From: an uncultured Thermoanaerobaculum sp.
GTDB taxonomy: Bacteria; Acidobacteriota; Thermoanaerobaculia; Thermoanaerobaculales; Thermoanaerobaculaceae
Reading direction: 5' to 3'
Length of the DNA: 41,029 nucleotides
Assembly: GCA_937934115.1 (NCBI GenBank)
Contig: CALHAH010000038.1
Location: 1-41,029 of the forward strand
The notes under the pieces: generated by a model
The model's database searches: none
What the model was told of the DNA's origin: nothing
Seen by the model: the letters and a program-made list of their open reading frames with translations, nothing else
Part shown: piece after piece, positions 567-41,029 of the stretch
How the letters are laid out: every line of letters starts with the position of its first letter
Position numbering within the stretch: the first letter of the stretch is position 1
Made by a program: the position numbers and the translations under genes

Positions 567-573
567 CGAAAAA

Positions 574-660
574 TGGTGCAGGCGGATGGATTCGAACCAC
601 CGTAGGGCTTAGCCCGGCAGATTTACAGTCTGCTGCCTTTGACCGCTCGGCCACGCCTGC
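574..660 (-). tRNA. tRNA-Tyr (anticodon GTA)
   Basis: An 87-base class II tRNA with a long variable arm (CCGGGCTAAGCCCTACGG region). Acceptor stem GCAGGCG/CGCCTGC, anticodon stem GCAGA/TCTGC with loop CTGTAAA (anticodon GTA), T loop TTCGAAT and an encoded CCA at 574-576. Confidence 0.96.
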
Positions 661-707
661 ACCCACCACAGTCCCAAACCTTCCCCGCGGGATGCGATCG
701 CAAACCC

Positions 708-783
708 TGGAGCTGGCGAGGGGACTCGAACCCGTAACCTGCGGATTACAAATCCGCTGCTCTACCAGTTGAGCTACGCCAGC
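708..783 (-). tRNA. tRNA-Thr (anticodon TGT)
   Basis: First tRNA of the cluster. Acceptor stem GCTGGCG/CGCCAGC, anticodon stem GCGGA/TCCGC with loop TTTGTAA (anticodon TGT, reading ACA), T loop TTCGAGT and an encoded CCA at 708-710. It corresponds to thrU of the E. coli thrU-tyrU-glyT-thrT-tufB order. Confidence 0.96.
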
Positions 784-25240: not shown

Positions 25241-25266
25241 AGCCACCTCCTGCTATTGCTGCAACT

Positions 25267-25280: not shown

Positions 25281-26084
25281 CTAAAAACGGCGGGTAGCGG
25301 CGCGGAGAGGTTGCACAAACCTCTGGATTTCCCCAAAAAGCTCCGGACGGTCGCCAATTTCCGCGATGCGCGCAACAATTGCCGAGCCCACCACCACGCC
25401 GTCAGCCACCTTGGCCACGCGGCTGACCTGCTCGGGCTTAGCTACGCCGAACCCTACGGCCACCCGTTTGCCCGCAAGCTTGCGCACCAGCCGCACCTGG
25501 TCTTCCAGCTCCACCGGCAGCTGGGCTTGCGGGCCGGTGACGCCCGTGTGGGAAACAAAGTACACGAAACTCTCCGCAAGCTTTTTCACCTGCTTGACCC
25601 GTGCTCGCGTGGAGGTGGGGGCCAGCATAGGGATAAGCTCCACCCCAACTCGACGGAAAGCCTGGTAGTAAGGGCCCGCTTCTTCCGCGGGCACATCGGT
25701 TACCAGCACCCCGTCCACGCCGGCGGTAGCTGCATCCGCCGCGAAGCGGGAAAGCCCATAGGCGAGGATGGGGTTGGCGTAGGAGAACAGCACCACCGGC
25801 AAGGAAGAGGCAAAGCGCAGCTCACGCACCGTTTGTAAAACGCCAGTAAGCGTGGTCCCCGCCGCTAAAGCCCTTTCCGCCGCAGCACAGTTAATAGGGC
25901 CATCGGCAATGGGGTCGGAAAACGGCACGCCCAGTTCCACGATGTCGGCGCCACCCCGTTCCAAGGCCCGCAAAAGCTCCAGCGTCCGCGCCGGCGAAGG
26001 ATCCCCGGCGGTGATGTACGCGATAAAAGCCGCGCGCTTTTCCTTGGCCGCCCGCCGAAATGCCGTCTCAAGCCGGCTGCTCAT
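25281..26084 (-). CDS. trpA: Tryptophan synthase alpha chain
   Basis: Cleaves indole-3-glycerol phosphate to indole, which is channelled to TrpB. The 267 residues carry the catalytic Glu and Asp in [17 protein letters not shown] near residues 48-60, [22 protein letters not shown] and the phosphate loop [10 protein letters not shown]. It overlaps trpB by four bases (ATGA) and is the last gene of the aro-his-trp superoperon. Confidence 0.97.
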
Positions 26085-27274
26085 AACCGCACCCCCTCCA
26101 CACGAGCCACCTCCGCCACGTCCTTATCCCCACGACCGGAGAGGTTTACAAGGATGGCCTCGGCGGGCGAGTAACTGCGGGCCACCTTGGTGACAAAGGC
26201 CAATGCGTGGGCGGTTTCCAGTGCTGGCATGATGCCCTCCATTTCAGAGAGCAAGTGGAAAGCCGAAAGGGCCTCATCGTCGGAGACCTGCACGTACTCC
26301 ACCCGGCGGCTGTCCTTCCAAAAGGCATGCTCAGGGCCCACCGCCGGGTAATCCAACCCCGCCGACACCGAATGGGTAGGGGCGGTGTTGCCGCCTCCGT
26401 CCTGCAGCACATAGGTGTACGTGCCGTGCAAAACTCCCGGCGAACCGCCGGCAAAACGGGCGGCGTGGTGACCCAAAAGGGGGCCCCTCCCCCCGGCTTC
26501 CACCCCCACCAGCTTGACCTTTTGGTACGGCAGGAAAGCGGAAAAAATGCCCGCAGCGTTGGAGCCACCACCTACGCACGCCACCACCAGGCTGGGGAGC
26601 GCACCGTGAGCTTTGCGAATTTGCAGCCAAGCTTCGGCGCCAATAACCGACTGAAATTCGCGCACCATCATGGGGTACGGGTGGGGGCCCAACACCGAGC
26701 CCATGACGTAATGGGTGGTGTTCACGTTGGTGACCCAATCCCGCAACGCCTCGTTAATGGCATCCTTGAGGGTCTTGGCACCGGCATCCACCCCCACCAC
26801 CTCCGCGCCCAAAAGCTTCATGCGGTACACGTTGAGCGACTGCCGCCGTTCGTCTTCCGTGCCCATGTAAATGCGACAGGAAAGCCCCAAAAGCGCCGCG
26901 GCCGTAGCCACCGCCACCCCGTGTTGCCCGGCCCCGGTTTCAGCAATGACCCGCACTTTGCCCATGCGCCGCGCCAAAAGACATTGGCCCAAAGCGTTGT
27001 TGATCTTGTGGGCGCCGGTGTGGCAGAGATCCTCCCGCTTGAGGTAAATCCGCGCGCCACCCAGATGCGCCGAAAGGCGGGCGGCAAAGGTGAGGGGTGT
27101 GGGGCGGCCGCAGTAATCCCGCAGCAAAGCGTCCAGCTCCCTGCGGAAACTCTTGTCCCTGGTGGCCTCATGGAAGGCTTGCTCCAGCTCCTGCAAGGGG
27201 GCCATGAGGGTTTCGGGAACAAACCGACCCCCGTACGGCCCAAAGTATCCCCGTTCATCCGGTAACCGCTTCAC
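26081..27274 (-). CDS. trpB: Tryptophan synthase beta chain
   Basis: Joins indole and serine with PLP. 397 residues, classical TrpB1 type: [16 protein letters not shown] at the start, the PLP lysine in [38 protein letters not shown] and LSGRGDKD at the end. GTG 27274 is chosen since GGGAGGG lies four bases before it; it overlaps the trpF end by 20 bases. GTG 27289 is an alternative. Confidence 0.97.
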
Positions 27275-27878
27275 GCAACCCTCCCTCACGAACAGCCCGC
27301 ATAAAGGCCCGCACCTTCCCCGGGTCCTTGCGGCCAGGGGACGATTCTACCCCAGAGGACACGTCTACCCCGGCCGGAGCACAGGCAGCTATGGCCTGGG
27401 CGACGTTTTCCGGTTTGAGACCGCCAGCGAGCCAAAAGCTCATGGCAAAAGGACGCCTTGCCAAAAGCTCCCAAGAAAAGCTGCGCCCGCTCCCGCCCCC
27501 GGCATCGAAGAGGATGCGCGCCACCGAAGCGTAACGCGCCACCAGTTGCCAATCCACGTTTTCCCCGACAGTAATGGCCTTAATCACCGCGCTTGGCCCG
27601 CCCAGAGCGTGGCACAGCTCCGGCGGTTCCTGGCCGTGGAGTTGCACAAGCAAAAGCCCCGCTTTCTCCCGCACCTGCTGGATGAATTCCCGCGACTGAT
27701 TGCAAAAAACCCCTACCTTGCCGGCAAAGGGTAAAGCTTTGATCCAACCGCAGTGGGCCAGTGAGAGAGCCCGCGGCGAGGACGGAGCAAACACAAAGCC
27801 CAAGAAATCCGCTCCGGCTTCCGCCGCCAGTAGAGCATCGGCGGTATTGGTCAGCCCACAGATCTTCACGGTAACCAA
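27255..27878 (-). CDS. trpF: Phosphoribosylanthranilate isomerase
   Basis: Amadori rearrangement of phosphoribosylanthranilate. 207 residues with the general base Cys in VKICGLT and the acid Asp in [24 protein letters not shown] and VDVSSGVE bind phosphate. Start: TTG 27878 has GGGAGG four bases before it and gives the usual MV-x-VKICG N terminus. GTG 27869, which overlaps the trpC stop as GTGA, is an alternative. Confidence 0.95.
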
Positions 27879-28633
27879 GCTGCCTCCCGCAGCTGCCGAA
27901 GGGCAGCTTCAGGGTCTGCCTGGCGAAGGAGGTACCCCCCAATCAAAAAGCACCGCACCCCGGCAGCCGCCAGCCGGGAAAATTGTTCGGCATCTTGGAT
28001 GCCGGATTCCAACACCCCCACCACAGAAGTGGGCAAGCCTAGTACCAAGGCCGCGGCCGATGCCACGTCCACGTGGAAGGTTGCCAAATCCCGGGAGTTT
28101 ACCCCCACAAGCTCCGCCCCAGCCTCAAGGGCACGGTGCATTTCCTCCTGGTTATGGGTTTCCACCAGCGGTTCCAAACCCAGCTCCCGGGCACAAGCCA
28201 CCATTTCTGAAAGCAGGCTCCCCGGCAGCACCCGGGCAATGAGCAGCACGGCATCAGCACCGCTGGCCACCCCGCTGAACAGGTGCTCAGGGCGGGAAAA
28301 GAAATCCTTTTGCAGCACCGGCAAAGGCGTGGCTTTCTTGACTTCCGCCACCCAAGCGCTGGACCCTCCAAAGTACTTGGGTTCGGTGACCACCGAAACG
28401 GCCGCAGCACCACCCCGCTCGTAGGCCCGCACCAACGCCTGCGGGTCCATGGGGTCACGGAGCACCCCAGCCGAGGGCGACTGCCTCTTCACCTCGGCAA
28501 TAACCCTTACCCCCGGCGAGCGCAAGGCTTGGAGCAAGCTGCGGCGGGGAAGGTTAAGACCGCCATCCGTCGGCGGTGCGGCCAAGCGGCTGGCGCTTTC
28601 TTCCACCAGCAGGGCAAGCCAGTTTTTAGACAT
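27866..28633 (-). CDS. trpC: Indole-3-glycerol phosphate synthase
   Basis: Closes the indole ring. 255 residues with EVKRQSPSAGVLR, the catalytic lysine in PVLQKDFF, LLIARVLPG, LVETHNQEE, GVNSRDLATF and ESGIQDAEQ in barrel order. It overlaps trpD by eight bases. TrpC and TrpF are separate here, unlike the E. coli fusion. Confidence 0.96.
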   Translation of the reverse strand: MSKNWLALLVEESASRLAAPPTDGGLNLPRRSLLQALRSPGVRVIAEVKRQSPSAGVLRDPMDPQALVRAYERGGAAAVSVVTEPKYFGGSSAWVAEVKKATPLPVLQKDFFSRPEHLFSGVASGADAVLLIARVLPGSLLSEMVACARELGLEPLVETHNQEEMHRALEAGAELVGVNSRDLATFHVDVASAAALVLGLPTSVVGVLESGIQDAEQFSRLAAAGVRCFLIGGYLLRQADPEAALRQLREAAWLP

Positions 28634-29648
28634 GCGAAAGCTCCTGGGCTTTCGCCACCAACTTCTGCCAAAAGCCCAAAGCGCGCCCTTTCCGCAAGGC
28701 AGAGCTTGCCAGCTCGTACCCTTCAGCCATCGTGGCTACCTTACCGCCCACCACCAACGCCGCTGCCGCCGCTAAGGCTACCGCCGGCGCTGCAGGGTCT
28801 TCTTCGCCACCCAACAGCGCTAAAAGCCTTTTGGCGTTTTGCGCAGCGTCGCCCCCTGCCAAAGCCTCCTCCGCCACCGGCGGGACCCCCAGGGATTGCG
28901 GCTGCAGGCAAAAGGACTGCACCACGGCCCCGTCCCGCACCTCTATGACCCGGGTGGCAACGCTTGGCGAAATCTCGTCCATACCGTCTTCACCGTGGAC
29001 CACCCACACGTGCACCGCACCCAAACGGGCAAAGGCTTGAGCTACCACCTCCTGAGCTTGCAAAGAGAAGACCCCCACCACTTGGCGCTGCACGCCGGCA
29101 GGGTTGGCCAAAGGCCCCAGCAGGTTAAAAACCGTTCGTAACCCCAGCTCCCGCCGTACCGACGCTACGGCTTTCATGGCCGGGTGGAAAACCGGGGCAA
29201 AGAGGAACACAAAACCTTCCTCTTGTAGAAGCTTCTCCGAAGCCTGGGGCGCCAAGGTCAAAGGCCAGCCCATGGCCTCCAGCACATCAGCCGAACCACA
29301 GCGGGAGGACACCGAGCGGTTGCCGTGCTTGGCCACTGGCACCCCCAAGCTGGCAGTAAGGACGGCAGCCGCGGTGGAGATGTTCAACGTGCCTTTACCA
29401 TCGCCACCGGTGCCGCAGGTATCCACCGCCCCCTCGGGAGCTTGCAGTTTGACCGCAAACTGGCGCATGACCTGAGCCGCTTCCGCCACCTCCAACGGGG
29501 TCTCCCCTTTGGCGCGCAGCGCCACCAAAAAAGCCGCCTGTTGCGCCGGGGTAAGCTGCCCGCCCATGAGGGCGGTGAAGGTTTCCCGCATTTCCTGCGG
29601 GGAAAGCTCATCCCCCGCCAACAACCGTTCCATGGCAACCTTAAACAT
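28626..29648 (-). CDS. trpD: Anthranilate phosphoribosyltransferase
   Basis: Joins anthranilate and PRPP. 340 residues with the PRPP loop DTCGTGGDGKGTLNIST, VAKHGNRSVSSRCGSADVLE, the FNLLGPLANPAG segment and VHGEDGMDEIS. It starts nine bases after trpG with a G-rich ribosome-binding stretch. It is not fused to the amidotransferase. Confidence 0.97.
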   Translation of the reverse strand: MFKVAMERLLAGDELSPQEMRETFTALMGGQLTPAQQAAFLVALRAKGETPLEVAEAAQVMRQFAVKLQAPEGAVDTCGTGGDGKGTLNISTAAAVLTASLGVPVAKHGNRSVSSRCGSADVLEAMGWPLTLAPQASEKLLQEEGFVFLFAPVFHPAMKAVASVRRELGLRTVFNLLGPLANPAGVQRQVVGVFSLQAQEVVAQAFARLGAVHVWVVHGEDGMDEISPSVATRVIEVRDGAVVQSFCLQPQSLGVPPVAEEALAGGDAAQNAKRLLALLGGEEDPAAPAVALAAAAALVVGGKVATMAEGYELASSALRKGRALGFWQKLVAKAQELSHV

Positions 29649-29657
29649 GGTCCCCCC

Positions 29658-30230
29658 CTAGCTGGCAAGCTGCAAGAAGTTGGCCAGCAAATTCTTGCCC
29701 TCGTTGGTCAGGTACGACTCGGGGTGGAACTGCACCCCAAAGTGCGGGTGGGTCCTGTGCTGTAAACCCATGATAAGCCCATCTTCAGTCCAAGCCGTCA
29801 CCGCAAGGACCGCGGGTACGCTTTCCCGGCGCACCACCAACGAGTGGTAGCGGGTGGCTAAAAACGGAGTCGGCACGTGCCGGAAAATGCCCTGTCCCCT
29901 GTGATGGATTTCTGAGGTCTTGCCGTGCCGAGGTTCCGGGGCCCGCACCACTTCCCCACCGTAGGCCACCGCCAACGCTTGATGCCCCAGGCACACCCCC
30001 AAAATGGGCACGCCAGGTGCTTGCCGGAAAAGCTCCACGCTGACACCAGCGTTTTCCGGGCGACCGGGACCGGGTGAAATCACGATGGCTCGCGGTTTTT
30101 TCCCTAAAAGCTCGGCCACCGTGGCGCGATCGTTGCGCACCACCTGCACCTCTTCGCCTGCAGCCAGCTCCAGAAGGTACTGGACCAGGTTGAAGGTGAA
30201 CGAGTCATAGTTGTCCACCATGAGGATCAC
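29658..30230 (-). CDS. trpG: Anthranilate synthase, glutamine amidotransferase subunit
   Basis: Supplies ammonia to TrpE; may also serve para-aminobenzoate synthesis. 190 residues of class I GATase: MVDNYDSFTFNLVQYL, VISPGPGRPENAG, the nucleophile Cys in LGVCLGHQ and His-Glu in VQFHPES. GTG 30230 overlaps the trpE stop (GTGA) after a GGAGGG box; ATG 30221 is an alternative. Confidence 0.96.
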   Translation of the reverse strand: MILMVDNYDSFTFNLVQYLLELAAGEEVQVVRNDRATVAELLGKKPRAIVISPGPGRPENAGVSVELFRQAPGVPILGVCLGHQALAVAYGGEVVRAPEPRHGKTSEIHHRGQGIFRHVPTPFLATRYHSLVVRRESVPAVLAVTAWTEDGLIMGLQHRTHPHFGVQFHPESYLTNEGKNLLANFLQLAS

Positions 30231-31702
30231 GGTTCCATCCCTCCAGCAATGGCGCATGCCTTGGCTAGAGCCTGCACTTTGTGCCCACACTCGGCCAGTT
30301 CCCGCTGGGGAAGCGAGTCAAACACCACACCCGCCCCGGCTTGCAGGTTCACTTGCTCACCGGTAACCACCGCCGTGCGGATGGCAATACAGGCGTCCAT
30401 ATCGCCACCCAAATCGAAGTACCCCACGGCGCCACCGTAAATGCCCCGTCGCACCGGTTCCAGCTCCTCGATAAGCTCCATGGCGCGAACCTTGGGGGCA
30501 CCGGTGAGGGTCCCGGCGGGGAAACAGGAAAGCAAAACGTCTAAGGCATCTTTGCCGTCTTGCAACTGCCCGCACACCTCGCTCACCAAGTGCATGACGT
30601 GGGAGTAGCGCTCCACCGCCATGAAGCGCACCACCTCCACACTTGCCGGCCGGCATACACGACCCAAGTCGTTGCGCCCCAAGTCCACCAGCATGAGGTG
30701 CTCGGCCCGCTCCTTTTCGTCCTGACAAAGTTCCCGTTCCAAAGCCGCGTCTTCTTCTGGGGACTGTCCCCGGGGTCGAGTACCCGCAATGGGACAGGTG
30801 GTGGCCAGGTTACCACGCAAACGGGCCAAGGTCTCGGGAGATGAGCCCAGTACGTGCACGTCACCGGTATCCAAAAAGAACATGTACGGCGAGGGGTTGG
30901 TGAGGCGCAAAGCGCGGTAAAGCGTGTACGCCGACGCTGTACGTGGCAAAGACCAACGTCGGGAAAGCACGATTTGGAAGACCTCCCCCGCCCTGATGGC
31001 GTCCTTCGCCTTTGCCACCGCCCGCAGGAAGTCCTCATCACCGGGCATGACGGTGGTTCCCGCAGGAAGCTGGTCGGAAACGGCTGGGATTGGTGCCGGC
31101 GCCGCGGCTTCCAAGGGCTGGGCTAACACCGCGGTAAGCTCATCCAGCTGCGCCAAGCCCTCTTCATACGCCCGCTTCACCCCTGCCTCCCGGGGATTAG
31201 GGGTGACCACGAGCAGCAGACGCTGCCGCACGCGATCCAGAGCGGCCACCGCTCGGTAGTCGCCAAACCACGCCTCGGGCAAGGCCAAGGGGTCAGAAAG
31301 CCGTTGCGGCAAGCGCTCGATGTAACGCACCACGTCGTAGGCCAGGTAACCCACGGCCCCACCCACAAACGGCGGGAACGCTTCCAGCTGCGGGCGACCC
31401 GGGCCTACCAGCAAGCGGTGCAAAGCCGCCATGGGTTCTTCCGGCACCGATACACCATCCACGGCCACGTGCCCTTCACGCAAGGTGATGACCCGCCGGG
31501 GGTTGGCCCCAGCAAAGGACCACCGGGCCACTCGCTCTCCCCCCTCCACCGACTCCAAAAGAAACGGGTGACGCCCCCACTGGCCCAAGCGCAGGAGCAT
31601 CCCGTAGGGTGTCACCGTATCAGCGGTAAGTTCGCGAACCATGGGAACTACCGGGTACGTTTCGGCCAAACGACGGTAAGTGGCAAGATCGGGGACTATC
31701 AC
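30227..31702 (-). CDS. trpE: Anthranilate synthase component I
   Basis: Converts chorismate to anthranilate, the committed step of the Trp branch. 491 residues. The N-terminal LLESVEGGERVARWSFAG holds the Leu-Leu-Glu-Ser element used for tryptophan feedback binding. The chorismate core has IAGTRPRGQSPEED, LMLVDLGRNDLGRV, GTLTGAPKVRAMELIEELE and GIYGGAVGYF. GTG 31702 overlaps the hisIE stop (GTGA), so the his and trp halves are translationally coupled. The frame is open upstream in hisIE, but that part is shadow. Confidence 0.97.
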   Translation of the reverse strand: MIVPDLATYRRLAETYPVVPMVRELTADTVTPYGMLLRLGQWGRHPFLLESVEGGERVARWSFAGANPRRVITLREGHVAVDGVSVPEEPMAALHRLLVGPGRPQLEAFPPFVGGAVGYLAYDVVRYIERLPQRLSDPLALPEAWFGDYRAVAALDRVRQRLLLVVTPNPREAGVKRAYEEGLAQLDELTAVLAQPLEAAAPAPIPAVSDQLPAGTTVMPGDEDFLRAVAKAKDAIRAGEVFQIVLSRRWSLPRTASAYTLYRALRLTNPSPYMFFLDTGDVHVLGSSPETLARLRGNLATTCPIAGTRPRGQSPEEDAALERELCQDEKERAEHLMLVDLGRNDLGRVCRPASVEVVRFMAVERYSHVMHLVSEVCGQLQDGKDALDVLLSCFPAGTLTGAPKVRAMELIEELEPVRRGIYGGAVGYFDLGGDMDACIAIRTAVVTGEQVNLQAGAGVVFDSLPQRELAECGHKVQALAKACAIAGGMEP

Positions 31703-32325
31703 GGCTGCCCCCCCAATCCCCGCCCTTGCAGCTCCTGGGTCAGCGCTTCCACAGGCACCCCTTCCGCCACCAGCACCACGGCCACGTGGTACAAAAGATC
31801 CGCCAGCTCCTCCACCAGCCTCTGCTGGCCCTGACCGCGTGCTGCCAGCACCACTTCCCCGGCTTCTTCTACCAGCTTTTTCAAAGCCTCGTCGGGTCGG
31901 GCGAGGAGGCGCGCGGTATAGGAGCCTTCGGGGGCTTCCCGTTGACGAGCTTGCACCATGCGCAGCAAACCCAAAAAAGGCGGCACCGGCACCCACCCTT
32001 GACCCCAGAGGGGCCTATGAAAGCAGCTGGTAGCCCCTGTATGGCAGGTAGGACCCTGGGGCAACGCCAAGACCAACAGCGCGTCGCCATCACAATCAGC
32101 CACCACCCCCCGCAGGGCAAGGGTGTTCCCCGAGCTTTCCCCCTTTTGCCAAAGCCGGTTTCGAGACCGGGAGAAAAAGTGAACGAACCCTGTCTCTTGC
32201 GTTTTTGCCAGGGCACAAGCGTTCATGAAGCCCAGCATCAGCACCTCCCCGGTGAGGGCGTGCTGCACCACTGCCGGGATGAGACCCCGTTGGTCGTATT
32301 GCAAGCTCACGCTTTCTACCCCCAC
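31699..32325 (-). CDS. hisIE: Bifunctional phosphoribosyl-AMP cyclohydrolase / phosphoribosyl-ATP pyrophosphatase
   Basis: Two histidine steps in one 208-residue protein. HisI (about 1-115): [16 protein letters not shown], the metal site DCDGDALL and the zinc Cys pair in CHTGATSCF. HisE (about 118-208): [19 protein letters not shown] and [12 protein letters not shown], an all-alpha MazG-like fold. GTG 32325 is chosen for its GGGAGGAAGC box; it overlaps hisF by ten bases. Confidence 0.96.
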
Positions 32326-33083
32326 GCTTCCTCCCAACGCACCGGTACACCGCGGGCTGCCAAAGTTCTCTTCAGCGCACCCACCGTCGTTTGCCCCTCG
32401 TGAAAAATGCTGGCGGCCAGACCGGCATCGGCGCCCGCCGCATACGCCAAGAAAAAGTGCTCCGGGGAGGTGCCGCCGCCGGAAGCAACGATGGGCACGC
32501 TCACCGCGTGTCGCACCGCCGCCACCAGCTCCACGTCAAACCCTTGCCCCGTGCCGTCCCGGTCCACCGAGGTGAGCAGCAACTCGCCCGCACCCCGCTT
32601 TGCGCCTTCCCGAACCCAGGACAGCACATCACGCCCGGTACCCACTCGCCCACCATGGGTGACCACCTCCCACCCCCAGCTTGTCCTCCGGGCATCCACT
32701 GCCAAAACCACGCTTTGGCTCCCCAAAAGCGCCGCAAGCTCCGCCAGCAGCTCCGGGTTGGCCACCGCTGCGGAATTCACCGCCACCTTGTCGGCACCGG
32801 CGGCCAAAAGCTGGCGTGCATCCTCCACCGTGCGCACACCCCCGCCCACACAAAAAGGGATGTCTAAGACCTCCGCCACCTGGCGGACGACCGGAAGCAA
32901 CGTGTTTCGACCCTCCACGGTGGCCGAGATGTCCAAAAACACCAGCTCGTCCGCCCCCTCGTCGCGGTAGCGGCTGGCGAATGCAACGGGGTCTCCCATG
33001 GTGCGGAGGTCCTGAAAGCGAACTCCTTTGACCACGTTTCCCTGATCCACGTCCAAGCAGGGGATAATGCGAAACGCGCCCAC
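32316..33083 (-). CDS. hisF: Imidazole glycerol phosphate synthase, cyclase subunit
   Basis: Uses ammonia from HisH to make IGP and AICAR. 255 residues with [18 protein letters not shown] (catalytic Asp11), [35 protein letters not shown] (second catalytic Asp) and [15 protein letters not shown] 33083 starts one base after the hisA stop with GGAGGGG upstream; the open frame before it is not HisF. Confidence 0.97.
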
Positions 33084-33084
33084 C

Positions 33085-33816
33085 TCACCCCTCCAAGATT
33101 TGGGCAACCTCAGCAAGCGACAGCGCCCCCGTGGCCAAAGCCGTACCCACCACCACGCCCTCCAGCCCCCGGGGTACAAGAGCAGCTAACGCTTTCACAT
33201 CTTCCCGGCCACCAACGCCTCCCGATGCCAGCACACCAGGACCAAAGGCAGACAGGACTTCCTCCAGCAAGCCCAGGTCGGGGCCAGCAGCCGTTCCATC
33301 CCGGGCCACCGCCGTTACCAAAAGGTGTCGGCAGCCAAGCCTTCGCACCTCCCGGGCAAAAGCCTGTGGCGACCAGGGGCTCGCCTGGGCCCAGCCACCC
33401 GCTACCACCACGCCGTCGCGGCTGTCGGCAGCCACCACCAGTCCCTCCGGATCTTCACAAGCCAACTGCGCGATGGCCTCCGCATCCCGCACCGCCAGCG
33501 AGCCCACCACCACGCGGGAAGCCCCCAGCTGGCGGAGTTCGCGAAAGTCCCTAACGCTGCGCACCCCTCCCCCCACCTGCACCGGCAACGAGACCTGCCG
33601 ACACAACGCCGCCACCACCTCGCGGTTATGCCCCACCCCAAAGGCCGCATCCAAATCCACCACGTGGACGCCCAAAGCGCCTTCCCGTTCCCACCGCTGG
33701 GCGAGAGCCACCGGGTCCTCACTCACCACCCACGCGGTCTCCGGCCTGCCCTGGCGCAACCGCACCGCCTTGCCCCCCAAAACGTCCACCGCCGCCCAAA
33801 CCCGAAAACTGCTCAT
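33085..33816 (-). CDS. hisA: ProFAR isomerase
   Basis: Isomerises ProFAR to PRFAR. 243 residues, a (beta/alpha)8 barrel: [16 protein letters not shown] (base Asp near residue 11), [12 protein letters not shown], the acid Asp in [14 protein letters not shown] and [12 protein letters not shown]. The usual T-(D/E)-x-x-RDGT segment reads [12 protein letters not shown], with Ala for the acidic residue. It overlaps hisH by four bases (ATGA). Confidence 0.95.
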
Positions 33817-34412
33817 GACGATAGCTCCAAGAACTCACGCAAGAACTGCGCTCCGGCTTCGCCGCTTTTTTCTGGGTGAAACTGAACACCCACCACCCGA
33901 CCACGGCGCGCCGCGGCACAAAACGAAACGCGGTCGTGGGTCACCACGCCCAGGAGATGCTCCGCTGCGGGCTGGGCCGCGTAGGAGTGCACGAAGTAAA
34001 ACCACCTCCCGTGCAAAGAGCCAAACCCCGCTCCTGTGGCCTCCACCTTTGCCCAGCCCATGTGCGGCACGCGAACACCGGAAGGCAAGGGAGCCACCAC
34101 CCCGGGCAGAAAGCCCAAACCCCGATGCAGACCAAACTCCGTCAGCTCTTCGAAAAGCAGCTGATGGCCAAGACAAATGCCCAACAGCCACGCGCCGTTG
34201 GCCACCGCTTCGCGAAGGGCCTCTTCCACCCCGTCCTTCCGCAGTCGCTCTAAAGCTGGTGGCGCCGCTCCCACCCCCGGCAACACCAAGCGCCGGGCCA
34301 CGGCCACGTCCTCGGCTTGCGCCACCACCTCCACGGTGGTCCCCAAACGGCGAAAGGCCCGCACCACGTTGGGCACGTTGCCCACCCCCAGGTCCACCAC
34401 CGTCACGGTCAT
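33813..34412 (-). CDS. hisH: Imidazole glycerol phosphate synthase, glutaminase subunit
   Basis: 199-residue class I GATase partner of HisF: VVDLGVGNVPNVVRAF at the start, VLPGVGAAPPAL, the nucleophile Cys in LGICLGHQLLFE, and the His-Glu pair in VQFHPEKSG. Overlaps hisB and hisA by four bases each (ATGA). Confidence 0.97.
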   Translation of the reverse strand: MTVTVVDLGVGNVPNVVRAFRRLGTTVEVVAQAEDVAVARRLVLPGVGAAPPALERLRKDGVEEALREAVANGAWLLGICLGHQLLFEELTEFGLHRGLGFLPGVVAPLPSGVRVPHMGWAKVEATGAGFGSLHGRWFYFVHSYAAQPAAEHLLGVVTHDRVSFCAAARRGRVVGVQFHPEKSGEAGAQFLREFLELSS

Positions 34413-35005
34413 AGGTGTAAGGTGCCCTTGGTGGAAGGCACCACATCGGAAACCAACCGCACCGCCTGAGCTAGAGCCAAAGCAAACGCCTTGAACGCCG
34501 CTTCCGCAGCGTGGTGGGGGTCGCGGCCCCGTTCCACGTCCACGTGGAGGGTGAAAAGGCCACGGCTTGCCACCGCCTTAAAAAACTCCGCCACCAGCGT
34601 CAACGGGAAGCTGCTGGTCACTAAAGCCAGCTCAAGGCCCTGGGGAAAGGCAACCCAGGCGTAGGGACGCCCGGAAAGGTCCACCACCGCCCTGGCCAAA
34701 GCTTCATCCAGAGGGGCGTAGGCAAAGCCAAAACGCTGAATACCTCGTCGTTCGCCCAGGGCCTCGGCCAAAGCCTGTCCCAGGGCCAAGCCCACATCCT
34801 CCACCGTGTGATGGGCGTCCACTACCAGATCGCCCTCGGCTCGCACCGTCAAACCCAGCGCCGCGTGGTGGGCCAAGGTGGCCAGCATGTGATCGAAAAA
34901 GCCCACGCCCGTGGAGATGGCGTACCCTTGCCCCCCCAGTTCCAGCTCCACCGCCACGCTGGTTTCACCCGTGAGTCGTTCTACCCGTCCCACCCTAGGG
35001 TTCAC
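34409..35005 (-). CDS. hisB: Imidazoleglycerol-phosphate dehydratase
   Basis: 198 residues, dehydratase only, without the histidinol-phosphatase domain found in enterobacterial HisB. The two metal-binding repeats are seen: FDHMLATLAHHAALGL with DAHHTVEDVGLALG, and RGRDPHHAAEAAFKAF. The end STKGTL is typical. GTG 35005 has GGAGG six bases upstream and overlaps hisC by 11 bases. Confidence 0.96.
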   Translation of the reverse strand: MNPRVGRVERLTGETSVAVELELGGQGYAISTGVGFFDHMLATLAHHAALGLTVRAEGDLVVDAHHTVEDVGLALGQALAEALGERRGIQRFGFAYAPLDEALARAVVDLSGRPYAWVAFPQGLELALVTSSFPLTLVAEFFKAVASRGLFTLHVDVERGRDPHHAAEAAFKAFALALAQAVRLVSDVVPSTKGTLHL

Positions 35006-36029
35006 GTACCACCTCCTTAAGAACAGCCAGCAACACGTCCCCTTCCTCACGAGTCCCCACCGTCACCCGCACATACCCAAGCGCCGAAAGTTCCTCCACT
35101 TCCCGCACGGCAATACCCGCTGCGGCAAGAAATTGCGCCAGGCGAGGGCCACCCCAGCCTTCGCGACGGAGCAAGTAAAAGTTGCCGCGGGAGGGGACGG
35201 CTTCCCAATGCGGAAGCCTCGCCACCGCTTGCAACTGCCGCTCCCTTTCGGCCACCACGTGCGCCGCTCGTCGCCGCCCCAGCTCGGGCATGGCCGCGGC
35301 GGCTTCAAAGGCAGCCCACACCGCCACCCCCGGCGCAAAGGGGAAAAGCCGTGTACGTATCCTTTTGGCAAAACTGGCAGAGGTCAAAACACAGCCGGCC
35401 CGCACCCCAGCCACCCCCCAAACTTTGGAAAGGGTTCGCGTGATCATGAGGTGGGGAAACTCCAAAAGCCACGGACCCACGTCACCGTACGTACCAAACT
35501 CCCAGTACGCCCCGTCCCAAATGGTGGGCTTACCCAAACGCAAAAGCTTTCGCCAAAGCTCAGGGGAAAGCTCACCACCAGTGGGGTTGTTGGGGGAACA
35601 GAACAGCAACACATCTGCTTCTTCCGCCAAGGCGCAAAGCTCATCCTCCGGGAAGGCAAACGCTGGGGCCTTGAGCACAAGGCGCTTTTCCACCCCCTGG
35701 GCCCGCCGGATGAGCCATGGGTAAACGGAAAAGCTAGGCCAAAACGTCAAAACCCGGGCGCCGCTTGCTGCAAAGGTAGACAAAGCCGCTGCCAGCACCT
35801 CGTTGGAGCCGTTGCCCACCAGGGTGCCCTCCGCCGACCAGCCGTACAAGCGAGCCGCGGCCTCCCGTGCCGGTCGCGCATCCATGGCGGGGTAGCGGCG
35901 CAGCTCCACCTGCTCAAGAAAAGAAAGGAAAAGCTTGCGAAAAGCGCCATCGGCCTCCCACGGGGCCTCGTTCAAATCCAACCGCAAGGCCGCCGCGGCT
36001 AGCGGAGGACGTACATACTCGGTGCTCAC
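34995..36029 (-). CDS. hisC: Histidinol-phosphate aminotransferase
   Basis: 344-residue class II-like PLP aminotransferase: LRLDLNEAPWEADGAFR at the start, VGNGSNEVLAAAL, LLFCSPNNPTGGEL, the PLP lysine in TRTLSKVWGVAGVRAG and the substrate Arg in YVRVTVGTREE. GTG 36029 overlaps the hisD stop as GTGA. It might also transaminate aromatic keto acids, as some HisC do, which would fit the mixed operon. Confidence 0.94.
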   Translation of the reverse strand: MSTEYVRPPLAAAALRLDLNEAPWEADGAFRKLFLSFLEQVELRRYPAMDARPAREAAARLYGWSAEGTLVGNGSNEVLAAALSTFAASGARVLTFWPSFSVYPWLIRRAQGVEKRLVLKAPAFAFPEDELCALAEEADVLLFCSPNNPTGGELSPELWRKLLRLGKPTIWDGAYWEFGTYGDVGPWLLEFPHLMITRTLSKVWGVAGVRAGCVLTSASFAKRIRTRLFPFAPGVAVWAAFEAAAAMPELGRRRAAHVVAERERQLQAVARLPHWEAVPSRGNFYLLRREGWGGPRLAQFLAAAGIAVREVEELSALGYVRVTVGTREEGDVLLAVLKEVVREP

Positions 36030-37315
36030 AACCTCCCCCGTTCCCCGGCACTCAAGGCCTCCGCGTGCAGGGGGAGGCCCTCCACTTCCGCCAGGGTGGC
36101 CGCGGCCCTTGCCAGCTTGGGGTAGCGGTGAGGGGCTACTTGCACCACCGCCGTGCGGTGCACGAAGTCCCAAACCCCCAAGGGGGAAGCAAAACGCGCG
36201 GCCCGCGCCGTAGGCAAAATGTGATTGCTACCCACCACGTAATCGCCCAAGGTCACCGGCGAGTACGTCCCCAAAAACACCGTCCCCGCAGCGGTAATGC
36301 GCTCCACCCACCGTTGGGGTTCTTCCACCAAAAGCTCCACGTGTTCCGGGGCAATGCGATTCACCGCCTGGCAGGCCGCTTCCAGGTCTTCGGCCAAGAA
36401 CACCGCCCCCCAGCGTTTGAGAGCTGTGCGCGCCGGCGAGTCGGCGGGCAACGAGCGAAGCTTTGCCCGCAACCGTGCTTCGATCTTCCCCACCAAGCTC
36501 TCGGCAGTGGTAATGGCCACCGCCAGCGCGTCCTCGTCGTGTTCCGCTTGCGCCAAGAGGTCGGCGGCCACTATCGCGGGATCGGCGTGGTGGTCCGCCA
36601 CCACAACCACCTCCGAAGGCCCTGCGATAAGGTCCACGTCCACGATGCCGTAAAGCGCACGCTTGGCCGCCGTCACCCAGCGCCCGCCTGGACCCACGAC
36701 CTTGTCCACCGCCGTCACCGACTCGGTGCCCAGGGCCAAAGCCGCCAGCGCGTGGGCCCCGCCCATCAAGTAAACCTCCCGCAGGTCCAAACGCTTCAGG
36801 AGGTAGCGGAGGTGCGGCGAGCTCAGGTACGCCCGTGGCGGGCAGGCCACGGCAATTCTCTCCACCCCCGCCAGGCGAGCCGGCACTACCGCCATCAGGA
36901 GGCTGGAAAGGTACACGGCCCCACCCCCGGGGACGTAAACCCCCACCGAGCTCAAAGGTCGCACGCGAATGGCCAACTCGTCCCCTTGAAGATCCAGCGT
37001 GTAGCCCTTGGGCTTTTGCGCTTCATGAAAGGCTTGTAAGTTGGCCAGGGCAAGCTCCACCGCCTCGGCAAAATCCTCCCCCACCTCCGCTTCCGTGGGT
37101 GCCTCGGGGGCGAGTTTGAGCTGCGAAACCGACATCCCCTTAAGGTCAAAGCGCCGCACATAAGCAGAAAGGGCCTTGTCCTTACCCTTGGCGATGTTGG
37201 CCACAATGGCGCGGACCTTCTCCTCCAGTCCAGGATCCAGCACCCTCGCCATGCGCCCGTCCAGCTGCTGCAGAAACTTCTCACCCTTCTCGTCGCTAAT
37301 CCGAAAGCTCCTCAT
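36026..37315 (-). CDS. hisD: Histidinol dehydrogenase
   Basis: Last two oxidations to histidine. 429 residues with VGVYVPGGGAVYLSSLLMAV, GPGGRWVTAAKRAL, IAGPSEVVVVAD, the zinc ligands in LLAQAEHDEDA, catalytic Glu-His in IAPEHVEL and LGDYVVGSNHILPT. ATG 37315 follows GGGAGGTGACC; overlaps hisG by 20 bases. Confidence 0.97.
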   Translation of the reverse strand: MRSFRISDEKGEKFLQQLDGRMARVLDPGLEEKVRAIVANIAKGKDKALSAYVRRFDLKGMSVSQLKLAPEAPTEAEVGEDFAEAVELALANLQAFHEAQKPKGYTLDLQGDELAIRVRPLSSVGVYVPGGGAVYLSSLLMAVVPARLAGVERIAVACPPRAYLSSPHLRYLLKRLDLREVYLMGGAHALAALALGTESVTAVDKVVGPGGRWVTAAKRALYGIVDVDLIAGPSEVVVVADHHADPAIVAADLLAQAEHDEDALAVAITTAESLVGKIEARLRAKLRSLPADSPARTALKRWGAVFLAEDLEAACQAVNRIAPEHVELLVEEPQRWVERITAAGTVFLGTYSPVTLGDYVVGSNHILPTARAARFASPLGVWDFVHRTAVVQVAPHRYPKLARAAATLAEVEGLPLHAEALSAGERGRL

Positions 37316-37928
37316 GGTCACCTCCCAAACGGTGCACTAACGCCGTCAATGCCTCAAACTCCGTTGCCCAAGAGGCCCGGTTGGCCACAAAATAAGGTGC
37401 CACCTCAAGCCAGGTTTCCACGATCACCAGCCCATTTTCCCGCAACGTTGTCCCGGTTTCCACAAGGTCCAAAACCAACGGCGCTAAATCCAGGGTGGCT
37501 GCCAGCTCCACCGAGCCGGCCAGCGGCACCACTTCCGCCCACAGCCCCCTTTGCGCCAAAAGCTTCTGCGCCAAGCGTGGGTACTTGGTGGCGAGCCTGA
37601 AAGGCTTCCAGAGGGGTGGTGCAGGCCTATCCTGCCGTGCCAGCAGGCACAACCGGCAGCGGCCAAAACCGAACCGCCGCAGGCGCAGGAGATCAGCTCC
37701 TGCCTCCAGGATTTGGTCCAAACCCACCACCCCTGCATCCGCCACCCCCTGCGACACGTAAGCGGGTACGTCCGCGTCCTTGACCACCACCACCCGCAGT
37801 TCCCCGTCCTCAAAAACCAACCGCCTGGGGTTGGACTTGACTGCCGCGGCCAGAGAAAACCCGCCACGTTCCAAAAGATCCGTTACCGGCGCGAACAACC
37901 TTCCCTTGGGCAAGGCCAGCGTCACCAT
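37296..37928 (-). CDS. hisG: ATP phosphoribosyltransferase, short catalytic form (HisG-S)
   Basis: First step of histidine synthesis from ATP and PRPP. 210 residues, lacking the C-terminal regulatory domain of long HisG, so it needs HisZ. Motifs: TLALPKGRLFAPV, DVPAYVSQGVADAGVVG, ATKYPRLAQ and the PRPP loop LVLDLVETGTTLRENGL. ATG 37928 overlaps hisZ by seven bases, with GGAGGG just upstream. Confidence 0.96.
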   Translation of the reverse strand: MVTLALPKGRLFAPVTDLLERGGFSLAAAVKSNPRRLVFEDGELRVVVVKDADVPAYVSQGVADAGVVGLDQILEAGADLLRLRRFGFGRCRLCLLARQDRPAPPLWKPFRLATKYPRLAQKLLAQRGLWAEVVPLAGSVELAATLDLAPLVLDLVETGTTLRENGLVIVETWLEVAPYFVANRASWATEFEALTALVHRLGGDHEELSD

Positions 37929-38800
37929 GAGCCCTCCACCAGAAGCTGGTCCAAAGCCACGGTGGCCCCTACCGCCCACACGGCTCCGCTGCTTGCTTCC
38001 ACCCGGTACTCGCCACCGGAAGCCAAAAGCCCCTTGCTCCTTCGCCCCCAGAGAGAAAAAACCACCCCCCGGTAGTACCGTGCGGACGAGCGGGGCACGA
38101 GTTCAAAACGCACAGCTACCCCTTGCGCTCGCGCCTGTGCCGCGGCTTTCTCCACCCGCGCCCACACCGCCTCCAGACGGAAAAAGCGAACCCAATCGCG
38201 TCCCTCATCGAAGACAGCTTGCCGCAGGTAAAAAGCGGCCTCACCACGCAAGCCTAAAAGTGACGTTACGGCATCCGCATCCTTGGCTGCGAGCAAGTCT
38301 AAAAGCTCCTGATCCGGCGCCTCTTCCATGAGCAAGCCCAGGACTTCTTCCCCCAATCCGGTGTGGCTTACAGTCAAAGCCAGCCCCTGGGTGGAAAAAC
38401 CCACCTCACGCACCAGCCCCAAAAGCAGCTCCAAAGTGGCAGCCGCTTCGTTTTCCACGTTAAAGGACTCAAAGCCCAGCTGCATGAACTCCCGCACCCC
38501 GCGCAAGCGCACCCCTTCCCGTCGCGCCACCTCGCCGGCGTAACAAACCCGCAGTGGGCGACCGTCCGCCAGCTCCGAACGCAGCGCTCGCCCAATGAGC
38601 GGCGTAAAGTCGGCCCGCACCCCCCAAACCCGGCCCTCGCCATCTAGGAAACGAAACCCCCCATCCTCCTCGCCGTCCACCGGGTAAACCAAAGGCAAAA
38701 GCACCGGCCGAAATCCCCGCTGTGCCAGCCAACGCATCCCTAGGAACTGGGCCTCGTAAAGCCGACCGCCGCCGGCGGGCAAACCGTGGAGCGTCATCAT
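37922..38800 (-). CDS. hisZ: ATP phosphoribosyltransferase regulatory subunit
   Basis: 292-residue paralogue of histidyl-tRNA synthetase core that forms the hetero-octamer with short HisG and mediates histidine feedback. Class II aaRS-like features: GRVWGVRADFTPLIGRAL (motif 2 side), VCYAGEVARREGVRLRGVRE, FMQLGFESFNVENEAAATLE and a final GGEYRV-x-ASSGAVWAVG-like motif 3. It has no anticodon domain. ATG 38800 overlaps the aroDE stop (ATGA). Confidence 0.92.
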   Translation of the reverse strand: MMTLHGLPAGGGRLYEAQFLGMRWLAQRGFRPVLLPLVYPVDGEEDGGFRFLDGEGRVWGVRADFTPLIGRALRSELADGRPLRVCYAGEVARREGVRLRGVREFMQLGFESFNVENEAAATLELLLGLVREVGFSTQGLALTVSHTGLGEEVLGLLMEEAPDQELLDLLAAKDADAVTSLLGLRGEAAFYLRQAVFDEGRDWVRFFRLEAVWARVEKAAAQARAQGVAVRFELVPRSSARYYRGVVFSLWGRRSKGLLASGGEYRVEASSGAVWAVGATVALDQLLVEGSW

Positions 38801-40290
38801 GGCCTTGCCTCCGCAAGCCCTAACGCTTGCGCCATAGCTCCCACTGGCGGCGCCACACCGTTCATGGCCGCAAATTGCGAAACACCCTGGAAAAGCAACA
38901 CTTCCTTGCCAGACACGTAGTCCCAACCACGTTCCTGTGCCAACTTTTGTAGGAAGGTGGGATTTTCGCCGTAAGGCATATCCACCACCACACACCCAGA
39001 GGGCAAAGCCAGGCGCGCCAAAAAATCGTCTTCCTCGCCGTGGGCACCGGCGGGGGTCGCGTTGATGCACGCGCGCACCTCGTGCAGATTTTCAGGTTCG
39101 GCAACTTTCGCCCCAAACTCCCGGGCCACCATGGCCGCCTTCGCTGCATTTCTGGCCACCACCAGCGCGTGGCTTCCTGCCAGCTGCAGAGCCACCAGGG
39201 CAGCGCGGGCCGCACCGCCACTCCCCAGCACCGCCACGCGCGCGCCGGCAAGCTCAAGCCCCGCCTCCAAAAGCACCCGCGTCACCCCATCCACATCCGT
39301 AAGGTCCCCCATGAGCTTGCCGGGTCGCGGCAGCACCGTATTTACCGCCCCGGCTCGCTTTGCCCGCGGCGCCAAAACATCGCAAAGCAGGGCAGCTTTT
39401 TCCTTCCACGGCATGGTCACAGCAAAACCGCCGGTGGCAAGCCCGACCCCGTCCAACGCACCGGAACCGGCCGGTTGCAGAAGCAAGGCAAGCTCCTGCT
39501 CGTTGGTAACTGTTATCGGCACAAAGGCGTAAGGCAGCCCCAAAGCTGCAAATGCTGCCGCGTGCATGCGGGGGGAAAGCGACCTGTGGGCGTGGGAGCC
39601 CACAACCCCATACACGCGCCGGGGCCTTTCCCGGAGGTGCCCCACCAGCGCTTGCAGCTCCGCCACCGAAAGCTGTCCCGGGGCCAAGCGTTGCCCCTCG
39701 TCCCAAGCTGCATACGCCACCGGCGCCGCCAGAAACGGTGCCAAAAGCCGCGTGGCGATCCCCACTTCCCCCTGCGCAAAAACAATGCCGCGCTTATGGC
39801 CGTTGCTGCCCCGCGCCAGTGCCTGCGCCAAGCGCAACACCACCAGCACATCCGCCAGCGACGCCGCTGTGGGTACCGCTTTCACAAAGCGGGTTCCCAT
39901 GGCTAAAAGCTTTGCCACCCGCTCTTCCAAATCCCCAGGGGTATGGTGCCAGTGCTGGGAAAGGATCACTTTTTCCCTGGGAAGAACCGAGCCCAAAAGC
40001 TCCCCGTCTCGTTCCGCTTCCACGTCGTAAAAAGCTGCCCCCCACCTGGCCGCTTCGCGAAAGAACGCCTGCCGACTGGCCGTATCCTCCGGACCCTGGC
40101 CCCCTTCGGCCTTCGAACGCAACGTCACCACCACAGGCAGGGACGAGGCGCGCACCAGCTCCGCCACAGGACAGGAAGACGGCAGAAGATCCACTCGAAG
40201 TTCTACCAGCGTAGCACCCGCCGGGGGGTGAGCGAGGAGCTCCCGGGGATCCCCATCGCCAACTTTTCCTAATGTGGCAATGATCTCCAT
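38797..40290 (-). CDS. aroDE: Bifunctional 3-dehydroquinate dehydratase (type I) / shikimate dehydrogenase
   Basis: 497 residues. The AroD half (about 1-210) is type I: LVELRVDLLP, the His of ILSQHWHHTPGD and the Schiff-base lysine in RFVKAVPTAASLAD. The AroE half (about 225-497) has VVGSHAHRSLSPRMHAAAF, catalytic Lys in FAVTMPWKEKA, the NADP loop VLGSGGAARAAL, INATPAGAHG and LLFQGVSQFAAMNG. The usual G-x-N-T-D motif reads GDLTDVDG, with Leu for Asn. Such fusions are typical of plants and Chlamydia and occur in some other bacteria. It opens the superoperon; the start codon ATG 40290 abuts a T5 tract, and its GGGGAGG ribosome-binding site lies in the attenuator hairpin. Confidence 0.93.
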   Translation of the reverse strand: MEIIATLGKVGDGDPRELLAHPPAGATLVELRVDLLPSSCPVAELVRASSLPVVVTLRSKAEGGQGPEDTASRQAFFREAARWGAAFYDVEAERDGELLGSVLPREKVILSQHWHHTPGDLEERVAKLLAMGTRFVKAVPTAASLADVLVVLRLAQALARGSNGHKRGIVFAQGEVGIATRLLAPFLAAPVAYAAWDEGQRLAPGQLSVAELQALVGHLRERPRRVYGVVGSHAHRSLSPRMHAAAFAALGLPYAFVPITVTNEQELALLLQPAGSGALDGVGLATGGFAVTMPWKEKAALLCDVLAPRAKRAGAVNTVLPRPGKLMGDLTDVDGVTRVLLEAGLELAGARVAVLGSGGAARAALVALQLAGSHALVVARNAAKAAMVAREFGAKVAEPENLHEVRACINATPAGAHGEEDDFLARLALPSGCVVVDMPYGENPTFLQKLAQERGWDYVSGKEVLLFQGVSQFAAMNGVAPPVGAMAQALGLAEARP

Positions 40291-40327
40291 AAAAACCAAC
40301 CTCCCCGCCGCTGCCGGCGGGGAGGTT
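40291..40327 (-). terminator. Attenuator hairpin directly before aroDE
   Basis: On the minus strand a perfect 13-bp stem (AACCTCCCCGCCG, loop GCAG, CGGCGGGGAGGTT) is followed by GG and TTTTT, and the T tract touches the aroDE ATG. As RNA this can both stop transcription and hide the aroDE ribosome-binding site GGGGAGG. On the plus strand the same stem is followed by T7, but no plus-strand gene needs a terminator here. Confidence 0.7.
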
Positions 40328-40345
40328 TTTTTGCCATCCCGTGAT

Positions 40346-40374
40346 CCCCGCTCGGCCACGCGGCGCGAGCGGGG
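40346..40374 (-). promoter_or_regulatory. Middle hairpin of the aroDE leader
   Basis: CCCCGCTCG (40374-40366) pairs perfectly with CGAGCGGGG (40354-40346), with an inner GCC/GGC pairing. Just upstream, GGCGGAGG (40383-40376), placed right after the leader-peptide stop codon, can pair with CCTCCCCGCC (40325-40316), the 5' arm of the terminator hairpin, with a two-base bulge. That would be the antiterminator, closing around this middle hairpin. Confidence 0.5.
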
Positions 40375-40383
40375 TCCTCCGCC

Positions 40384-40449
40384 CTAACGCCGCCCTGGCG
40401 TATGGAACCAGTACCAATGGCCGTAGGTGCGGTAACCCATCGCGTTCAT
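40384..40449 (-). CDS. Leader peptide with His-Trp-Tyr-Trp-Phe-His run (attenuation)
   Basis: A 21-codon ORF, ATG 40449-40447 to TAG 40386-40384. Codons 11-16 (40419-40402) read HWYWFH; codons 6 and 9 are also Tyr, so eight of 21 codons are His or aromatic. It lies between a promoter and a terminator-like hairpin in front of aroDE-his-trp, as in classical trp, his and phe attenuators. The predicted transcript starts only about 3-5 bases before the ATG, so it would be translated nearly leaderless; ATG 40440 is an alternative start. The order of elements and amino-acid content support a real leader peptide; translation is not shown. Confidence 0.75.
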   Translation of the reverse strand: MNAMGYRTYGHWYWFHTPGRR

Positions 40450-40459
40450 CACGCCAAAA

Positions 40460-40489
40460 ACTCTAAACCCCGCATTGCTCCCCTGTCAA
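40460..40489 (-). promoter_or_regulatory. Promoter of the aroDE-his-trp superoperon
   Basis: Minus-strand TTGACA (40489-40484) with TTAGAG at 17 bases or TAGAGT at 18 bases (40466-40460). Start near 40454-40453. The -35 lies inside the decayed 3' end of a transposase gene. Confidence 0.7.
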
Positions 40490-40810
40490 GGGCCCTGTAT
40501 TCGTCCATAACTTTTGGCACGCCTTGCTGGATTCGGAGAAAATTTGGATAGGGGTTTTGCGTTTCCCGGCGTGGTGGGGGAGTTCGTGCCTGCGCGGATG
40601 AGGAACTGGGCGAGCCTGCGGCTTTTAGGTCCAAGTCGGTGAAGAGGAGATCAAGGTCGTGGTTGTTGAACATGTCATGAAGGGTGCGGTTGAAACGCTC
40701 CACGAACGGGTTTTCCTTCGGGGAGCGGGGGTAGGTCCAGAAGTGTTCGAGACCCAAGGCTTGCAGGGCTATTGGAACTTGCCGGCGAACTCGGAAACGC
40801 TGCGGTCCTC
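40462..40810 (-). pseudogene. Decayed DDE transposase (rve/integrase core, IS481- or IS3-like)
   Basis: Pieces of one integrase core occur in order but in changing frames: a DNGSEF-like SEFAGKFQ (near 40795, followed by an in-frame stop), then ALGLEHFWTYPRSPKENPF with VERFNRTLHDMF (catalytic Glu, 40765-40670), then RRLAQFLIRAG, then KTPIQIFSESSKACQKLWTN, which matches the usual transposase C terminus. The first catalytic Asp and everything before it are missing. At least three frameshifts or a stop make it a pseudogene. The promoter of the aro-his-trp operon overlaps its last codons. Confidence 0.7.
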
Positions 40811-40833
40811 GCTCCTGCGGGGCCAACGCGAAC

Positions 40834-41029
40834 AAATGTGGGGCCCGCGCGAAGAAATGTGTGGCCCCCGCGGAAAAATGTGGGGCCGCCGGTTATCTGC
40901 CGCGGGGGGCACGGCCATGCTCCTCCCTCCACCCGTGGGCGGCTTGGCCCCCGCACCCCCACCGCTCGGCCCAGCAAAGCCGGGCCTCGCTGGGGCGGCC
41001 GGGAAAGATGTGGGGCCGCCGCTCCGCGG
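40834..41029 (+). repeat. Phased AAATGTGGGG-type repeats at the right edge
   Basis: Copies start at 40834 (AAATGTGGGGCCCGC), 40855 (AAATGTGTGGCCC) and 40876 (AAATGTGGGGCCGCC), each 21 bases apart; a fourth is at 41005 (AAGATGTGGGGCCGCC), followed by CGCTCCGCGG, a tail also seen after the copy at 14183. They belong to the same family as the 14.14-14.32 kb repeats and flank the transposase remnant, so they are probably transposase-binding end repeats. The rest of this stretch is very G- and C-rich with no convincing gene. Confidence 0.65.

Follow-up and report, generated by a model that had tools for sequence, protein, structure and literature searches.

On the minus strand of the window (the whole stretch of 41,029 nucleotides analysed here), a leader region at positions 40291-40489 precedes a long biosynthetic operon. 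Profile matches gave the gene order aroDE-hisZ-hisG-hisD-hisC-hisB-hisH-hisA-hisF-hisIE-trpE-trpG-trpD-trpC-trpF-trpB-trpA, in agreement with the aro-his-trp superoperon named in the initial annotation. The features of the leader and of the operon were as follows.

40484-40489, minus strand: -35 hexamer TTGACA (promoter scan), invariant in 13/13 family members
40460-40465, minus strand: -10 hexamer TAGAGT, with an 18-nt spacer to the -35
40384-40452, minus strand: leader ORF MNAMGYRTYGHWYWFHTPGRR (ORF reading), from GTG 40452 or the in-frame ATG 40449 to TAG 40386-40384
40402-40419, minus strand: sensor codons His-Trp-Tyr-Trp-Phe-His (HWYWFH), His and Trp being enriched across 12 leaders
40379-40393, minus strand: arm 1 (GGCGGCGTTAGGGCG region), overlapping Arg-Arg-stop and the bases after it; partner of arm 2
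40360-40374, minus strand: arm 2 (CCCCGCTCGCGCCGC), partner of arm 1 or arm 3
40345-40354, minus strand: arm 3 (CGAGCGGGGA), partner of arm 2 or arm 4
40315-40327, minus strand: arm 4 (AACCTCCCCGCCG), terminator 5' arm and anti-Shine-Dalgarno
40298-40310, minus strand: arm 5 (CGGCGGGGAGGTT), terminator 3' arm, holding the aroDE Shine-Dalgarno GGAGG at 40304-40300
40291-40297, minus strand: GG-T5 tail between the hairpin and the aroDE ATG at 40290; terminator score d = 31
38797-40290, minus strand: aroDE (type I dehydroquinase and shikimate dehydrogenase), first gene (profile match)
31699-38797, minus strand: hisZ, hisG, hisD, hisC, hisB, hisH, hisA, hisF, and hisIE (profile matches)
25281-31996, minus strand: trpE, trpG, trpD, trpC, trpF, trpB, and trpA (profile matches)

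The promoter, the short ORF with its HWYWFH run, the arm after the stop codon, the middle hairpin, and the 13-bp hairpin were all found where the initial annotation had placed them on the minus strand. The initial annotation did not mention that the last hairpin carries the aroDE Shine-Dalgarno (SD) within its 3' arm. Two promoter-like sites, one per strand, were detected in the leader region, for 0.1 expected in shuffles. The leader ORF is 21-22 codons long, the sequence GGCGGAGG lies directly 3' of its stop codon, and the middle hairpin comes next. The last stem (13 bp, 40327-40298, minus strand) is followed by GG-T5, which adjoins the aroDE ATG. The leader start codon lies 6-8 nt behind the -10 in 13/13 family members, and in the window the GTG or ATG starts 7-10 nt after it. 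Because the start codon is so close behind the -10, the ORF looks leaderless, with a start predicted at or near the 5' end of the transcript. His, Trp, Tyr, and Phe codons represented 8 of 20 codons (binomial P 1.9e-4 for this single ORF), and the excess was far past chance once the orthologous leaders were pooled with that of the window.

The neighbourhood showed several other elements. A decayed transposase-like ORF lies at 40484-40835 (minus strand) and at L002-L008; its last ~75 bp are present 24 times in the genome. Most of the repeat copies read ended with a TTGACA-like hexamer, some with a -10-like sequence 17-18 nt further on, as if the transposase-like element inserted at, or supplied, -35 boxes. 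Donation of the leader promoter by the mobile element was rejected, the relative G001 having the same TTGACAGGG without the repeat. Four imperfect GGCCCCACATNTTTCCGCG-like copies are present near the contig end (40830-41029, minus strand), and four tRNA genes are clustered at 396-783 (minus strand). At 22320-25246 (minus strand), trpA is followed by a gene resembling Ser/Thr kinases and by one of unknown family, 296 aa long. The two come after trpA in G001 and G004 as well, and the 296-aa gene does so in several genomes of the genus g5.

Within the family of the window genome (family f1, window genome G000), relatives were found via AroDE and the DNA upstream of aroDE was read. The leader was present in all 13 genomes with an assembled aroDE start, once per genome and always before aroDE; in four other family genomes, outside these 13, aroDE was cut by a contig end or not found. 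The TTGACA, a -10, the position of the leader ORF, and the same arms were shared by 13/13 (the ORF stop being lost in G010). A covariance model of arms 2-5 likewise found exactly one copy per family genome, always before aroDE. It found no convincing copy in the sister family f2, where aroDE stands alone without such a leader, and the weak matches L081, L083, and L084 were dropped, as they had no fitting leader ORF. The copy in G010 is decaying: besides its stop codon, damage affects one Trp codon, the U tract, and some of the 2:3 pairing.

The leader peptides of the family (for example G001 MNAMGYRTYGHWYWFHTPERR, G002 MSNSVVALGRNCWHWYWVPVRR, G004 MRIETRRHHHHWHWTVRR, G005 MRMYGTHAHRHSTWAWPERR, G015 MQHAITLCHVGWWCWPVRR, G006 MRYLGVARHRDGWRWPVRR, G008 MHQAIARHHFGCWYWPVRR, and G009 MRAMGTTRHHHHVPPRR) have a conserved Arg-Arg-stop ending. 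The initial annotation had proposed that His, Trp, Tyr, and Phe are all sensed. In 12 family leaders the part concerning His and Trp held, with 30 His codons for 4.5 expected (P 4e-16) and 22 Trp codons for 3.5 expected (P 2e-11). The part concerning Tyr and Phe was not supported: Tyr codons numbered 11 for 3.7 expected but 5 for 3.0 without G000 and G001, and Phe was not enriched, with 1 codon for 6.4 expected once these two genomes were removed. Tyr and Phe are prominent only in G000 and G001, whose near-identical leaders belong to one genus. Relatives having the operon without the ORF, or with random codons in it, were looked for, and the outcome did not refute the reading for His and Trp. 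Two genera were exceptions. In g6 the leaders have four His codons and no Trp, though hisF-hisIE-trpEG is contiguous in G009; a loss of Trp codons by departure of the trp genes fails as an explanation, trpEG being still present. In g5, HisG was lost and only hisD was kept in the operon, yet the leader has 1-3 His codons, and the idea that f1 leaders lose His codons along with his genes fails there. In the g5 genomes G006, G008, and G010-G015 (L049-L055, L059, L061, and L062), no HisG was detected and hisD is alone between aroDE and trpE. These genomes, which probably belong to His auxotrophs, have thus kept hisD as an orphan.

The arms were equally well preserved. Pair counts in the alignment put the pairing of 3:4 at 97% and that of 2:3 plus 4:5 at 93%, much of it invariant across the family and carrying no covariation information. 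The covarying hairpins that the initial annotation proposed to look for were found in the genus g6, where compensatory changes affect 2:3, 3:4, and 4:5. CCCCGC/GCGGGG became CCCCGT/ACGGGG, arms 2, 3, and 4 changing together and arm 5 following (changed in G009, a G-U pair in G007). In the hisD-trpE gap of G007 (L057, 3560-3890), an echo of arms 2-3-4 (CCCCGGC...GCCGGGGAG...CTCCCCGGC) was observed, without obvious leader ORF or SD arm.

The 12 family leaders were folded with the ribosome footprint masked, the ribosome being placed either at the stop codon or on the His/Trp codons. In the window leader, a ribosome at the stop codon gave 9.0 bp for 2:3 and 0 for 3:4, and a ribosome on the His/Trp codons of HWYWFH gave 12-13 bp for 1:2 and 6.3-6.9 bp for 3:4. 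The corresponding means of the 12 leaders were 0.15 (1:2), 7.1 (2:3), and 1.6 bp (3:4) at the stop codon, and about 9-12, 2, and 6 bp on the His/Trp codons. The computed folds are mutually exclusive, with the choice set by the position of the ribosome. Eight of the 12 leaders switched cleanly, including G000 and G001, the imperfect ones being G002, G004, G005, and G007. The polarity first suggested (OFF with the ribosome at the stop codon, ON with the ribosome on the codon run) fits both the masked folding and the comparison. The blocking pair had to be revised: pairing of GGCGGAGG with CCTCCCCGCC (1:4) amounted to about 0.0-0.3 expected bp, compared to the 1:2 and 3:4 values above. Among 33 leaders beyond f1, 13 showed a rise of more than 0.2 in the pairing between the terminator 5' arm and the RNA upstream of it when the ribosome was stalled on the last His/Trp codon, and none showed a fall of that size (Wilcoxon P 8e-6). 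In the full-length leader 4:5 nearly always prevails at equilibrium, with the SD paired wherever the ribosome sits; 3:4 competes before arm 5 emerges. Since equilibrium folding keeps the SD paired, the switch would have to be kinetic, decided during RNA synthesis.

Because the terminator stem also holds the aroDE SD, the output of the leader may be transcriptional, translational, or both. A GC stem and a U tract lie before the first gene, as in intrinsic terminators, the U tract being weaker or absent in some relatives. Of the 13 family members, 11 had a positive score d, the highest being that of the window. In 25/39 class leaders at least four T were counted in 8 nt, and the T content from the SD to the ATG was 0.63 in leaders, the value for 59 SD spacers taken from the same loci being 0.23. 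As in translational attenuators, the SD of the regulated gene is inside the OFF-state hairpin: in 13/13 family members its 3' arm carries GGAGG, opposite an invariant CCTCCCC, and purine-rich SD arms of like kind exist in most class leaders. These arms would suit the same sensor with a decisive translational output, in which the last hairpin sequesters the aroDE SD, the downstream genes follow by coupling and polarity, and the T tract is incidental. This would also accommodate the interrupted T tail of most family members (TTTGAGTTG), the negative d of G013 and G010, and the family f8, in which no T tract directly follows the stem. We hold it to be less likely than not. Against it stand the d of 31 and the T5 of the window and the T enrichment of the leaders; moreover, the SD is buried at equilibrium even in the ON state, and a fast transcriptional decision fits better. 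For the window leader we infer that termination is favoured, with SD hiding as a second effect.

The class was surveyed by trpE, hisD, and AroDE searches followed by reading of the DNA upstream. Many families share the aroDE-his-trp fusion, with leaders present there too. The leaders of fused operons contain RHWHVHHS and WHWHWHHG (f5), WWGFVHHHVE (f6), SWWAHGHGKG and LHWHHWTHN (f8), GWWWHGVHHFGS (f12), RWRRSGHHHVVS (f13), GWWHGVHHHGDF (f16), and WAWRTHHHHAVS (f18), and that of f15 (his-trp without aroDE) LWLRWHHHGLS. In f7, where the his genes are elsewhere, aroD-trp leaders read NWWWYC, LWWWPSSE, and SWWFLRS, and hisZ leaders RTHHHHHHVM, RHHHRHHHLV, and QQHHHHHI. Separate hisZ operons have His-run leaders of the HHHHHH type with 0-1 Trp. 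No hisD was detected in f10 and f11, whose leaders read CWYWYWSDTR, NWRWREATR, and SWWRLEKRR. The aroDE-his operon of G136 (f18), whose trpE is on another contig, has the leader VVVHHHPVI. The short ORF carries codons for the end products of its operon, as an attenuator leader should. Also in f7, two Tyr/Phe-rich short ORFs, MNRTFAPNWFYYGYYT and MNHSALRYAYYYGYYS (L080, G044:C27:1120-1213, and L082, G071:C21:58596-58688), have the same hairpin layout before a gene for an AroQ-like chorismate mutase of 96-98 aa; they are probable Tyr/Phe attenuators.

His codons occurred in 29/29 leaders of fused his-trp operons (mean 2.9) and in 3/12 leaders of aro-trp operons that lack his genes (mean 0.4), both groups being chosen by Trp content (at least two Trp) and, apart from a few leaders, without regard to His (f1 by eye, f15 by either). 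A permutation at the family level gave a P of 0.0015 (9 fused versus 4 his-less families), the weight of genome-level P values being limited by relatedness. These counts cover operons where the ORF rule found a leader, which leaves aside, for example, most of f14, the aro-trp operons of G056, G060, G065, and G071, and G075 and G076; long, low-confidence Trp-containing ORFs (G089, G101, and G102) and a few leaders with one Trp by rule were also kept out of the test. Exceptions were G063 and G079, in which His codons are kept without his genes in the operon (two His before the aroDE-trpE operon of G079).

Three other explanations of the leader may be weighed against these data. That it is a true sensor of four amino acids, His, Trp, Tyr, and Phe, is possible but rather doubtful. 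The Tyr and Phe codons are among the six of the stall window, and wherever in that window a stall was tested, the fold was the same; 64 of 66 nt of the leader are identical between G000 and G001 although their AroDE are 83% identical, and the f7 leaders before chorismate mutase demonstrate that Tyr/Phe-rich leaders exist in the class. Against this stands the lack of Tyr/Phe enrichment outside G000 and G001, though aroDE heads nearly all these operons. An arrest peptide, in which the nascent chain itself senses a ligand, has a precedent in TnaC, which senses free Trp, and could be read into the Arg-Arg-stop end conserved in f1. We regard it as very improbable, the Arg-Arg codons being explained by the base-paired arm 1 and the peptides being wholly different between families except for their His/Trp content. 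Hairpins form readily in GC-rich DNA and short ORFs are common, but a chance ORF before an ordinary terminator or a structured 5' UTR would leave the conservation, the codon enrichment, and the co-variation with operon content without explanation, and its probability appears negligible.

In our opinion the leader is very probably a ribosome-mediated attenuator of composite kind, sensing histidine and tryptophan and placed before the whole superoperon. This reading is based on sequence and comparison, i.e., anatomy, conservation, codon/operon co-variation, and computed mutually exclusive folds, from which we infer the transcript start, the stalling, the ON/OFF outcome, and the output by termination, translation, or both. 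We propose that RNA polymerase would start at the leader start codon or immediately beside it, and that a ribosome would load on the leaderless 5' end. With charged tRNA-His and tRNA-Trp plentiful (in the genus of the window, tRNA-Tyr and tRNA-Phe would probably be sensed too), the ribosome would reach the stop codon and cover arm 1. The 2:3 pairing would then form, leaving arm 4 free for arm 5, and the resulting hairpin would terminate transcription at the T tract and/or hide the aroDE SD. Were any one amino acid short, the ribosome would stall on HWYWFH, 1:2 would form, and arm 3 would take arm 4. The terminator would come too late and the superoperon would be expressed. The logic would be that of an OR gate over the end products of the superoperon. 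A broader model can be advanced tentatively, in which a modular attenuator exists throughout the class, its sensed amino acids being re-edited as operons fuse or split, and acts in the genus of the window on transcription and aroDE translation through one hairpin, as an OR gate with four inputs (His, Trp, Tyr, and Phe).

The best-known relatives of this system are trpL and hisL of Escherichia coli and Salmonella, which act by ribosome-mediated transcription attenuation (PMC1183508). The likeness extends to the leader peptide with cognate codons, the mutually exclusive arms, the terminator before the first gene, and the race between RNA polymerase and ribosome. The present leader differs in that it senses His as well as Trp on behalf of a fused operon, has five arms, and holds the SD of the first gene in its terminator arm; in several genomes the untranslated leader is predicted to be ON, not OFF. 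An Rfam search matched the leader to no family, Trp_leader, His_leader, and T-box included, up to E 10, and a known RNA family or a T-box was rejected on this account. The leaders of ilvGMEDA, ilvBN, and thr have codons for more than one amino acid, as here. The products concerned are there related ones of linked pathways, whereas here operon fusion has brought two pathways together, and codons appear and disappear along with the genes. These operons are listed in PMC1183508.

A leaderless leader ORF is known in trpL of Sinorhizobium meliloti (PMC7298713) and, as far as the citing source conveys, in mycobacterial poly-cysteine ORFs (Canestrari et al. 2020, cited in PMC9031893). The transcript 5' end coincides with or adjoins the start of the leader ORF in these cases, as predicted here, but only one amino acid is sensed in each. 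Actinobacteria have Trp leaders and SD-sequestering ileS T-boxes (PMC1262725), and Firmicutes have His leaders (PMC9413887). They are also leader peptides or SD-hiding hairpins outside Proteobacteria, with one amino acid each. The aromatic supraoperon of Bacillus subtilis includes hisC and is controlled by TRAP. Aromatic, trp, and his genes share a transcription unit in both systems, while control in B. subtilis is protein-mediated and concerns Trp only. TRAP regulation is described in PMC4027176. No leader reading His together with Trp was found in the open-access literature, subscription papers being outside this search and absence not being proof. The principle of the switch is ordinary attenuation, and a single leader for His and Trp together appears to be undescribed. 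One leader peptide would serve two unrelated pathways, in a series of genomes where the sensor codons follow the gene content, and the rewiring of an attenuator during operon merger becomes a testable question. The leader also offers a ready design for a multi-input sensor, together with a likely leaderless leader ORF.
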